Below are positions 25,105 through 28,838 of a DNA stretch of 64,000 bases, in pieces. The position numbers were made by a program, and so were the translations under genes. The stretch is taken from NCBI GenBank assembly GCA_016213735.1, contig JACQZU010000021.1, positions 62,001 through 126,000 on the forward strand, read 5' to 3'. Numbering within the stretch: the first letter of the stretch is position 1; each line of letters starts with the position of its first letter. The notes below the pieces were generated by a model that made no database searches, was not told where the DNA came from, and saw only the letters and a program-made list of their open reading frames with translations. This stretch comes from Acidobacteriota bacterium. GTDB lineage: Bacteria; Acidobacteriota; Holophagae; Holophagales; Holophagaceae.

Positions 25105-25497
25105 TCAGCCCCGGAACTCCTCCCCGAGCTTGTTGATCACGGAATTGATCTTCAGCTTGGCCATTCCGATGCTGGCGTCGCTCTTGAGGATCATCACCAG
25201 GTGGATGTGGGCCTTGCCGGGCTGGGAGCGAAGCGGATCCGTGCCCTCGTTCAGGCAGCGCACCAGGATGTGGGCGTGCTCCGCCTCGACGTGCACCTGC
25301 TGTCCGCGGCCCGTGCCCATGTCCAGGGAGGCCTTCTGGGCGTTCATCAGGACATTGTTGGCCAGGACCCCGATGTCCTTCAGGTTGACCCCTTCCGCCC
25401 CGTACATCACGAGGGACTCCCCGGTCGGGGTGAAGAGGGCGGCGCCGGCGAAGCCGTCCACGGCGGCCAGTTCCTTCAGTTTTTCGATTGCGGCCAT
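25105..25497 (-). CDS. Roadblock domain from an internal start, 130 residues
   Basis: Within the larger gene, AAGGAG lies 6 bases before an in-frame ATG at 25497, in a stretch coding for Asn-Lys-Glu-Asn-His. The ATG coincides with the start of the roadblock domain (MAAIEKLKELAAVDGF). This is what one expects either of two genes fused by stop-codon loss or of a gene making both a full-length and a free domain. The shorter product is inferred, not proven. Confidence 0.55.
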   Translation of the reverse strand: MAAIEKLKELAAVDGFAGAALFTPTGESLVMYGAEGVNLKDIGVLANNVLMNAQKASLDMGTGRGQQVHVEAEHAHILVRCLNEGTDPLRSQPGKAHIHLVMILKSDASIGMAKLKINSVINKLGEEFRG

Positions 25498-26307
25498 GTG
25501 ATTCTCCTTGTTGGAGGGTGTGGGTTCTGTGGGGAGTACCGGGATCCCCTCGGGTCCCGGGAATTCGAGGTCTTCGGGTTGGAGGGCCATCGCGGGTCCG
25601 CCGGTCTCGGGAGTGGCCCTGAGGGCCTGCTCGTCCTTGCGCTTGAACGATTCCAGGAGGAGGGCCGAGAGGGGAGGCAAGGCCTGTTTGGGGCCCGAGG
25701 GGCCCGATCCGACCAGCTCGATGACGGGTTCATCCCAGGAGAAGATGGCCAGGGCGGCCTCTTCGCCGGAGAGGCTCCCCGCCTCGGCCTGGACCACCTG
25801 TCCCCCGAGGAACCGCAGCTCGCCGCGACCCGCATTCGACACCACCCTCACCGTGCAGGTCTTCTGGTCCAGCTGGATCATCTGGAGGAAGGTGGAAAGG
25901 CTGATGCCCGAGATCCGCCCCGTGGCGAGGCTCGCCAGGGCCTCGCTGATGGCCCCCCTCAGCTTCTGGATGTCCAGGGGCTTGTCGAGGAAGCGGCTCA
26001 CCCCCTGGCCCTTGAGGGTCAGCTCGATTTCGGGGGTTCCGAAGGCGGACATCACGATGACCGGAATGGAGCGGTGTTTCTGGCTCATGGCTGCCAGCAG
26101 TTCGAAGCCGTCCATCCCGGGCATCTTCAGGTCGGTCACCACGAGGTCGACTGGGCGGGAGTCCAGCACCCGGAGCGCCTCCACCCCATTGGCGGCCGTC
26201 ACGATTTCCGTATCTTCGAAGGCCGCGAAGCCGTCGGCGACGAAGCGGAGGAAGGCCGTCTCGTCGTCCACGACCAGCACGGTCGGCACCGATTCCGGCT
26301 TTCCCAT
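25105..26307 (-). CDS. REC-DUF4388-roadblock response regulator
   Basis: 400 residues from ATG 26307. Residues 8-125 are a receiver (VVDDE; phospho-Asp D59 in VTDLKMPGMDG; Lys in RFLDKPLD). Residues ~135-240 resemble DUF4388 (TGRISGISLSTFLQMIQLDQ). Residues ~271-400 are a roadblock/LC7-like domain (LAAVDGFAGAALFTPTGES). Roadblock proteins of this type often serve small GTPases such as MglA in polarity or motility, but no GTPase gene is adjacent. The linker before residue 271 encodes a perfect ribosome-binding site, so a shorter product is also likely (see the separate entry). Confidence 0.9.
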   Translation of the reverse strand: MGKPESVPTVLVVDDETAFLRFVADGFAAFEDTEIVTAANGVEALRVLDSRPVDLVVTDLKMPGMDGFELLAAMSQKHRSIPVIVMSAFGTPEIELTLKGQGVSRFLDKPLDIQKLRGAISEALASLATGRISGISLSTFLQMIQLDQKTCTVRVVSNAGRGELRFLGGQVVQAEAGSLSGEEAALAIFSWDEPVIELVGSGPSGPKQALPPLSALLLESFKRKDEQALRATPETGGPAMALQPEDLEFPGPEGIPVLPTEPTPSNKENHMAAIEKLKELAAVDGFAGAALFTPTGESLVMYGAEGVNLKDIGVLANNVLMNAQKASLDMGTGRGQQVHVEAEHAHILVRCLNEGTDPLRSQPGKAHIHLVMILKSDASIGMAKLKINSVINKLGEEFRG

Positions 26308-26422
26308 GCCGGGAGACTTCCAAGAATCCTGCCAGTTCGGCAAACCTTGATTCGTATTGGCTTGGAGAAGTGGCGGCCGTGCTCTGTCCCCGTCCTGGCG
26401 GGTCAATTTGAATCGGGCAGGG

Positions 26423-27763
26423 TCAATCTGGGTGGGTTCGCCCAGGTTCGCGTTTCATCCGGCGCTTGAGGGTGGACAGGGAAAGGCCCAGGGCGCGGGC
26501 GGCCTGGGTGAGGTTCCCCCCGTGGACCCTGAGGGCCTGGCGGAGGTGGGCCTCCTCCACTTCGGCCAGCGTGGGCATCCTCGTCCGGGGGTCTTCGGTC
26601 CGGTCCCTCTCCGGAGCGCCCAGGACCAGGCTCGCGGGGGGAACGCCCAGGAGCAGGGCGCGTTCCAGGAGGTTTCTCAACTCCCGGACGTTTCCAGGCC
26701 AGCCGTAGCCTTGGAGCGACTCCAGGTCTGTCTCCTTCAGCGCACCGGAGGCCTCCCGCCCCCCGATCAGCCCGAGGAGGTGCGGGACCAGGGCCGGAAT
26801 GTCCTCCAGGTGTTCGCGCAAGGGAGGGATTTCGATGCGGAGGACGTTCAGCCGGTAGTAGAGGTCGGCCCTGAACCGCTTCTCCTCGACGGCCCGCTCC
26901 ATGGGCAGGTTCGTGGCGGCCAGGATGCGCACGTCCACCGGCTTCCGCATCCGGCCTCCGAGGGGCATGACCTGCCGGTCCTCGAGCACGGACAGGAGCT
27001 TCGACTGCAGGTGGAAGGGCATTTCCCCGATCTCGTCCAGGAGTAGCGTGCCGCCCTCCGCCATCTCCAGCACCCCTTCCCGGGACGCGGTGGCCCCCGT
27101 GAAGGCCCCCTTGAGCCACCCGAACAGCTCCGCCTCGATGAGGTGCTCGGGCAGTGCACCGCAGTTCAAGGGAACGAAGGGCCCCCGGGCCCGAGGTCCG
27201 CCGTAGTGGATGGCCTTCGCGACGAGGTTCTTCCCGGTCCCTGTTTCTCCGGTGATGAGGACCGGGGCATCGGAGCCGGCCGCAAGGGCCACCGTCTCGC
27301 GGAGCCGGCGCATCGGAAGGGAGGCCCCGATCAGGATCGAACGGTCCTGCTCCGCCCCGGCGCGCCACGCGTCCAGCCGGCCGGCACGCTCCAGGGTGGA
27401 AACCGACAGGAGCCGTTCCACCGCATGGTCGAGGGCCGCCAGTTCCACCGGCTTCGAGAGGTAGTCGTGGACCCCCGCCTTGAGGGCGCTGACCGCGTGC
27501 TCGAAGGAGGGAAAGCCTGTGACGTACACCATCTTCGCCCCGGGATTGGCCCGGAGAAGGGGCTCGCAGATCCCGAGGCCGCTCCCATCCGGAAGGCGCT
27601 CGTCCAGGATGGCCAGGTCCACCGGCTGGGACTCCAGGAGGGCCAGCCCCGCCGAGAGGGTGTCGGCTTCGGACACCTGGAGGCGCCCCCGGAAGTGGTC
27701 CTGGATGGTGCGCCTGAACAGGGCATTGTCGTCCAGGACCATCAGGCGCCGGTCCCCCCGCAT
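26423..27763 (-). CDS. Sigma54-type response regulator (NtrC family)
   Basis: 446 residues. Receiver domain (VLDDNALF; phospho-Asp D54 in LAILDERLPDG). Central AAA+ domain with Walker A GETGTGKN near residue 166 and the sigma54-contacting GAFTGA motif near 215, in the variant context LFGWLKGAFTGA (usually LFGHxKGAFTGA). The C-terminal Fis-type helix-turn-helix is GNLTQAARALGLSLSTLKRR. It acts at sigma54 promoters when phosphorylated. Its start is at 27763, 2 bases from the kinase stop, so the two are a pair. No sigma54 promoter was recognised near either. Confidence 0.93.
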   Translation of the reverse strand: MRGDRRLMVLDDNALFRRTIQDHFRGRLQVSEADTLSAGLALLESQPVDLAILDERLPDGSGLGICEPLLRANPGAKMVYVTGFPSFEHAVSALKAGVHDYLSKPVELAALDHAVERLLSVSTLERAGRLDAWRAGAEQDRSILIGASLPMRRLRETVALAAGSDAPVLITGETGTGKNLVAKAIHYGGPRARGPFVPLNCGALPEHLIEAELFGWLKGAFTGATASREGVLEMAEGGTLLLDEIGEMPFHLQSKLLSVLEDRQVMPLGGRMRKPVDVRILAATNLPMERAVEEKRFRADLYYRLNVLRIEIPPLREHLEDIPALVPHLLGLIGGREASGALKETDLESLQGYGWPGNVRELRNLLERALLLGVPPASLVLGAPERDRTEDPRTRMPTLAEVEEAHLRQALRVHGGNLTQAARALGLSLSTLKRRMKREPGRTHPD

Positions 27764-27764
27764 G

Positions 27765-28838
27765 TCAGGCAGGCTCCAGGTTGAACTGGATGCGGGTGCC
27801 GCAGGGAATCCTCTGCTCCGCGTGGATCGTGCTGCCCATCTCGGCGAGCATCTTCTTCACGATCACCAGCCCGAGCCCCGTGCCGGAAACCTTGGTGGTG
27901 AAGAAGGGCGTGAACAGCCGGTGCATGTCCTGGTCCCGGATACCCGAGCCGTTGTCCTCCACCAGGACCGAGACCCCCCCTCCTTCCTGCCTAGCCCGGA
28001 TCCAGATCTGAGGGGAATGGCGCTCCTGGAGGGCATCGATCGCGTTCGCCACGAGGTTGATCAGCACCTGATTGAGTCCCCGGGGGTCCATGCTGACCAG
28101 GGGCAGGCCCGGCTCTGCTTCGATGGTGAGGCGGATGCCCCCCTGGGCGAGGTCCCGTTCAACGAGGGGGGAGAAGCCCTGGAGAAAGGCCGCAAGGTCC
28201 CTGGGCTGGCAATCGGGCCGTTCGTGGGCGGAGAAGCTCTTCAGGGTCTGGAGGAGCTGCTCCACCCGCGACATCTCGCCCTGGATTCCCTGGATGTATT
28301 CCTGGATGGTTTCCTTCGAGAACCGGTCAAGCCCGCCGCTGAGAACGCTGAGGGCCGTCTTCACCGAATTCACCGGGTTTCCCAGCTCGTGCCGGACGGT
28401 GGAGAAGATGTAGCCCAGGCTGTTCGTCCACTCGATGCTTCCCGCCAGGGCTTCCAGCCGGGTCCGTTCCGTGATGTCGCGAAGGAATACCCAGGCGAAC
28501 CGTCCTGCATGGTAGATCGAGTACCCGAAGATGCTGGCACCGACCCTGAGGACTTGGCTGTCCCGGGCCCGGGCCCCCGGCGAATCCAGGGATCCCTCCG
28601 GTCCGCCCAGGAGCCCGCACAGTTCCTCGAAGGTGTCCGTCCCGATCCGGGCGAGGAACTGGCCCGCAGCCTGATTGCGGAAGAAGATGCTCCGGGCCTG
28701 CAGGTCGAAGAGCAGGATCGCCGGCTGCATGGTCTGCAGGACATTCGCAAAGACGCATTCTCCCGGGCAGGGCGTCCCGCTGATGGGGCAACCACGCGGG
28801 TTCAGGCACAGCGGGTCGGACGCGGCGGTGTGGGTCAT
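27765..28838 (-). CDS. Soluble PAS sensor histidine kinase with N-terminal Cys cluster
   Basis: 357 residues, no membrane segment. Cys at 11, 17, 24 and 28 form a compact cluster that could hold an iron-sulfur cluster or zinc. A PAS domain follows (~30-125). The dimerisation helix has H150 in the H-box STVRHELGNPVNSVK, and the ATPase domain has NLVANAIDAL, EDNGSGI and TPFFTTKVSGTGLGL. It would phosphorylate the adjacent sigma54 regulator. A cytoplasmic redox or metal sensor is inference. The 164-base gap between it and the small gene upstream shows no clear promoter. Confidence 0.93.
   Translation of the reverse strand: MTHTAASDPLCLNPRGCPISGTPCPGECVFANVLQTMQPAILLFDLQARSIFFRNQAAGQFLARIGTDTFEELCGLLGGPEGSLDSPGARARDSQVLRVGASIFGYSIYHAGRFAWVFLRDITERTRLEALAGSIEWTNSLGYIFSTVRHELGNPVNSVKTALSVLSGGLDRFSKETIQEYIQGIQGEMSRVEQLLQTLKSFSAHERPDCQPRDLAAFLQGFSPLVERDLAQGGIRLTIEAEPGLPLVSMDPRGLNQVLINLVANAIDALQERHSPQIWIRARQEGGGVSVLVEDNGSGIRDQDMHRLFTPFFTTKVSGTGLGLVIVKKMLAEMGSTIHAEQRIPCGTRIQFNLEPA

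Follow-up and report, generated by a model that had tools for sequence, protein, structure and literature searches.

A REC-DUF4388-roadblock gene of the Holophagaceae with a conserved internal start predicted to yield a free roadblock subunit

One gene of an acidobacterial genome (Holophagaceae), located in the 64,000-nucleotide stretch of DNA analysed here (the window), is predicted to encode two proteins: a full-length REC-DUF4388-roadblock response regulator and, from an internal in-frame start with its own ribosome site, the roadblock domain alone. We consider it probable that this is a dual-start gene whose full-length and free roadblock products co-assemble, and that the internal site comes from a formerly separate roadblock gene. 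Judged from sequence comparison, it is likely that both products are made; their co-assembly, argued by analogy with MglB and MglC, is put forward more tentatively.

Encoded on the minus strand, the gene has its ATG at 26307 and its stop codon at 25105-25107 (Table 1). Codon 7, a GTG at 26287-26289, is an alternative candidate for the main start. The receiver is followed by DUF4388, each scoring above its Pfam cut-off (Response_reg, 84.3 bits against 30.2; DUF4388, 47.9 bits against 25), which places the protein among the REC-DUF4388 response regulators. The linker that follows is modelled with a pLDDT below 50 between residues 232 and 265. The preliminary description had located a perfect AAGGAG 6 nt before an ATG at 25497, exactly at the border of the roadblock domain, and this was confirmed in the sequence (spacer, 25498-25503).

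Table 1. Features of the REC-DUF4388-roadblock gene and its upstream neighbours, in window coordinates.
Feature	Position	Strand	Basis
REC-DUF4388-roadblock gene, full-length product 400 aa	25105..26307	-	Translation, Pfam, full-length ortholog alignment
REC (response regulator receiver) domain, aa 10-120	25948..26280	-	Pfam
DUF4388 (PATAN-type) domain, aa 129-227	25627..25923	-	Pfam
Unconserved linker, aa 232-270, internal ribosome site at its end	25498..25614	-	pLDDT, varies among relatives
Internal Shine-Dalgarno AAGGAG, 6 nt ahead of ATG	25504..25509	-	Sequence, conservation
Internal start ATG, codon 271 of 400	25495..25497	-	Sequence, conservation
Predicted free roadblock, 130 aa, stop codon included	25105..25497	-	AlphaFold2, Foldseek, separate genes in relatives
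NtrC-type sigma-54 activator with receiver domain	26423..27763	-	Pfam, neighbour kept in relatives
Histidine kinase	27765..28838	-	Pfam, neighbour kept in relatives
Sigma-54-like -24/-12 promoter, TGGCAGG-ATTC-TTGG	26320..26334	-	9/11 consensus bases, relatives

The C-terminal domain was matched by Robl_LC7 (residues 277-349) with 13.9 bits, below the Pfam cut-off of 23, and the free domain had no match among the NCBIfam families. AlphaFold2 modelled the 130-residue tail with a pLDDT of 85 and the order helix, two strands, helix, three strands, helix; the top Foldseek matches of this model were roadblock proteins, namely archaeal roadblocks, MglB and MglC (E ~1e-8). As modelled, the tail is a diverged roadblock, a member of the Roadblock/LC7 superfamily by fold and not by Pfam score. 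It shares its fold with MglB and MglC (Thermus MglB, Foldseek E ~1e-8, TM ~0.77), although its identity to Thermus MglB is ~21%. The conserved set of kinase, activator and fusion gene showed no GTPase. No small MglA-like GTPase was found among the window neighbours scanned with Pfam, and none was prominent in a scan of the genome itself, where the PF00025 matches were weak (25.2 bits at most) and fell in long frames.

Taken alone, the internal site is unremarkable and weak evidence; its strength comes from its conservation. On the 299,850-bp contig of the window, AAGGAG was found 5-9 nt before 7 of 1264 internal in-frame ATG codons and a core of at least 5 nt before 78 of 1264, the gene calls behind this background following a crude GC3-based rule. 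About one to two such sites are expected by chance per window. The energy of the duplex with the anti-Shine-Dalgarno sequence was dropped as a measure, since in this GC-rich genome 153 of the 1264 internal ATGs were equal or stronger and the site could not be told from the background; exact Shine-Dalgarno cores were used instead.

Seventeen in-frame fusions with roadblocks 63-100% identical, the window included, were collected from Acidobacteriota, Myxococcota, Nitrospirota and Calditrichota. At the roadblock border each of them has a start codon, ATG in 16 and GTG in one (L047). A core of at least 5 nt was present 4-11 nt before this codon in 15 of the 17, the exceptions being L070, with GGAG only, and L071, with no core. 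Geothrix oryzisoli and G. campi are among the relatives that carry the site. Two distant fusions (L038 and L068, ~38% identical) also carry a core, giving 17/19, against 10/502 for the other in-frame starts of the same 19 genes (Fisher's exact test, P = 4e-23, a value that ignores the relatedness of the genes). When lineages were collapsed by the tree and the ascertained family was left out, the core was found in 7 of 9 (P = 4e-11 with the 10/502 background; 1e-7 with the higher 78/1264 background). An in-frame internal start with a ribosome site, kept in relatives, is one mark of a dual-start gene, and the comparison of 17/19 with 10/502 shows it for this gene.

Several choices define these counts. 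One of the six peptide patterns used to search GTDB r220 includes the start Met, which may have introduced a small bias; pattern-free searches gave L067, L070, L071, L038 and L068. L068 was entered as fused, its DUF4388 part being judged by eye and no REC being seen in frame. Outside the 19 stand L072, a diverged paralog (36%) whose nearest ATG has GAGG only, and L039 (38%), whose border has no start codon; their addition would bring the core count to 17/21. L041 and L049 are near-copies and were left out of the table of 15 non-redundant fusions, and L051, L054 and L069 have no in-frame fusion to REC-DUF4388. L094 and L095 were rejected as extra fusions, since by eye they have no roadblock tail; in L096 a search for open frames of at least 300 aa found none. 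L072 lies beside the normal L070 in one genome (G1422) as a REC-DUF4388-roadblock copy without a good internal start, and is a possible natural control.

In other relatives the same roadblock is a gene of its own. Five two-gene relatives were found when the preliminary description's proposed check for separate genes was made (L069, L035, L036, L037 and L054), each with a separate downstream roadblock gene preceded by its own site. The description had also considered that relatives might always be fused and lack the site; this is not the case, given these five and the 15 of 17 fusions with a core. The closest, L069 (67% identical), has AAGGAG 6 nt before the ATG of a roadblock gene that starts 57 nt past the stop of a 421-aa REC-DUF4388 gene. 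In L035, L036, L037 (34-41%) and L054 (53%), a DUF4388-type gene is followed by the free roadblock; the upstream frame listed for L036 is without REC, and in L054 the REC-DUF4388 and a diverged roadblock occupy two overlapping frames. The domains of these upstream genes were named by eye and by match to the window protein, not by Pfam. In L035 (1689-2420) and L037 (785-1492), a gene that by eye resembles a protein kinase lies directly after the free roadblock; in a different family of the class (L004, 1492-2199; L005, 770-1462), a REC-DUF4388 gene without a roadblock tail comes after a related kinase.

The upstream gene of L069 itself ends in a diverged roadblock (hhalign probability 96, E 4e-9), while the corresponding homology in L037 is weak (probability 16); at the borders of the upstream genes' own roadblocks, a start with a core of at least 4 nt was present in none of the five. 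These data bear on the earlier proposal that two genes were fused by stop loss. A history of fusion is supported by the comparison of sequences, the direction not being settled by the tree; simple stop loss was rejected as the route, since the L069 upstream gene has an extra roadblock domain before its stop and the fused form would also require the loss of that domain. The backbone of the roadblock tree is poorly supported, and its starred branches require two or more changes between the fused and free states without giving their direction. The genome of L048 contains a further copy (L051, 3854-4396), which has kept the end of the linker, the site and the roadblock (dN 0.060, dS 0.199) and lost REC-DUF4388.

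The gene is rare and patchy. With the 130-residue roadblock as query, matches were found in 7 of 93 genomes of the class, in 6 of 396 genomes drawn from the phylum and at 15 loci in GTDB r220 contigs; a repeat search of the genomes behind 12 of these loci matched in 11 of 11. In the groups around the loci, with the centres counted, 4/195, 2/345, 1/245, 1/40, 1/2, 4/329 and 2/198 genomes matched. Holophagaceae roadblocks are 63-73% identical to the copies of Myxococcota, Nitrospirota and Calditrichota but only 34-41% identical to those of another family of their own class. This greater nearness to other phyla suggests horizontal transfer.

Codon-level support for the site is weak, and the constraint is seen mainly in the amino acids. 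When the amino acids were fixed and the codons drawn per gene, a core of at least 5 nt was expected in 12.2 of 18 genes and was seen in 16. In the full-length model the Lys-Glu-Met stretch stands at the start of a helix (residues 266-282), so a structural reason for its conservation is possible. It could thus be argued that only the full-length protein is made, that Lys-Glu and Met extend or cap the first roadblock helix, and that the likeness to a ribosome site is a by-product of codon choice; synonymous draws do give a core in most genes, the modelled helix does begin at residue 266, and chance sites are common (78/1264 internal ATGs). This account is nevertheless improbable. Among the 15 non-redundant fusions, no residue at positions -25 to -6 from the border is common to more than five, against a border codon of ATG in 14 and GTG in one; Glu at -4 is common to 10. 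The Lys-Glu pair shifts by one codon between groups, with a spacing of 6 or 9, and where Lys is lost (L043, L044 and L047) GGAGG is present instead at a spacing of 8. The border Met itself is replaced by a GTG start codon in L047, the residues on either side of it vary among the fusions, and in relatives this roadblock is encoded separately, with a site of this kind. A pause would be another use for the motif, since Shine-Dalgarno-like sites can pause ribosomes: placed at a domain border, after a stretch modelled with low confidence, the site might slow the ribosome and aid folding without any initiation. Pausing, however, would not require a start codon at a set spacing, and all 17 fusions have one. 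The codons after the internal ATG also look like those of a gene start: in the window, codons 2-10 have G or C at 5 of 9 third positions and the site is weakly folded (each in the lowest 2.5%, for GC3 of its own gene), and in Geothrix the same codons have GC3 of 3/9 against ~0.9 in the rest of the roadblock domain. Over 18 genes the GC3 dip and the weak folding each reach a combined P of ~2e-6, independence being assumed. We regard pausing as very improbable.

The alternative in the preliminary description, that the cell makes both a full-length and a free roadblock, is well supported by comparison, the start and its Shine-Dalgarno sequence being kept across phyla and the same roadblock being separate in relatives. 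The internal core exceeds in length the best core of every candidate main start in 17 of 18 genes, and on this basis the free form may be at least as abundant as the full-length protein, perhaps in excess. If both are made, the free roadblock might still act apart from the full-length protein, or block it, with no common complex. An excess of the free form would suit such a role, as would L051, a free copy without REC-DUF4388 in which dN is below dS. Against this, in the five two-gene relatives the free roadblock stands beside a DUF4388-type gene with a roadblock of its own, which suggests joint action, and the roadblock paralogs MglB and MglC are described as binding one another in a 4:2 ratio (PMC7949163). 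We regard a separate role as rather unlikely. The preliminary description had suggested that the free domain could cap the fused one or mix with it. Co-assembly of the free and tethered domains is inferred from this MglB-MglC binding and from MglB, described as a homodimer (PMC9481161).

The design has parallels in known systems. The CcmM and CheA pairs, described as using internal starts (PMC11005335), likewise derive a long and an N-terminally shortened protein from one gene; for CcmM, the long form is described as the anchor and the short one as the structural unit (PMC11005335). They differ from the present gene in having unrelated domains; here, sequence data show separate-gene relatives, and the two products are predicted. 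In type I-B, I-C and I-D CRISPR systems, an in-frame start within Cas8 or Cas10d gives the small C-terminal subunit Cas11 (PMC11899642); only the gene design is alike, the proteins and the pathway being unrelated. Alternative starts with Shine-Dalgarno contexts stronger than those of the annotated ones have been described in Salmonella (PMC11005335). Internal in-frame starts, Response_reg-Robl_LC7 fusions and PATAN neighbours of MglB homologs (PMC4316618) are already known; searches of the open-licence literature gave no conserved dual-start gene of the REC-DUF4388-roadblock type. A different, non-orthologous REC-DUF4388-roadblock gene in another Holophagaceae genus (L092, plus strand, ATG at ~1147; L093, minus strand) carries, at its roadblock border, an ATG preceded by GGAGG at a distance of 5 nt. 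These two near-identical rows are weak evidence, hinting at more than one origin of the design.

Relatives of the window's kinase and NtrC-type activator lie upstream on the same strand at 10 of the 15 GTDB r220 loci, the kinase being cut by the locus edge in two of them (L042 and L054). At the other loci, kinase and activator are divergent (L050), the activator was seen (L046), the kinase was seen (L044, L047), or neither was (L051). The sigma-54-like box before the gene matches 9 of 11 consensus bases in the window, a score reached in 1.4% of shuffles (0.014); with region borders chosen by hand, 9 of 15 regions beat their shuffles at 0.05, and the boxes of L043, L046, L048 and L049 match 10 of 11 bases. 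The window box stops 12 nt short of the main ATG; a message from it would start ~1 nt before the ATG and be almost leaderless (26305-26334, minus strand). In L040, L041, L048 and L049, short palindromes lie upstream of the box and after the NtrC-type gene (GGTTCA-N3-TGAACC in L040 and L041), and could be candidate sites for the activator.

We propose that one message is made, probably from the sigma-54 promoter under the neighbouring kinase and NtrC-type activator. A weak start at ~26307 would give the REC-DUF4388-roadblock protein and a strong start at 25497 the free 130-residue roadblock, in a ratio predicted from the strength of the two starts. The internal ribosome site is most likely that of a formerly separate roadblock gene, kept as codons after the fusion. 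Free and tethered roadblock domains would most likely assemble together, so that only some subunits of the roadblock oligomer carry a phosphorylatable REC-DUF4388 arm. As a whole, the scenario in which the fusion kept its partner's ribosome site, selection preserved the site across phyla, and the sigma-54 message gives tethered and excess free roadblock at fixed proportions in place of a two-gene operon, is a possible one that we hold with some reserve.

Read as one frame, the gene would hide a free roadblock subunit for which other lineages have an overt gene. If this is true, a signalling gene with two products has been conserved outside the commonly studied model bacteria, and the case suggests roadblock oligomers in which only part of the subunits bear a receiver arm. 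The relatives would then form a natural series (separate genes, fused genes with the site, and fused genes with a weak site or none) in which to ask when a cell needs the free subunit besides the fused one.
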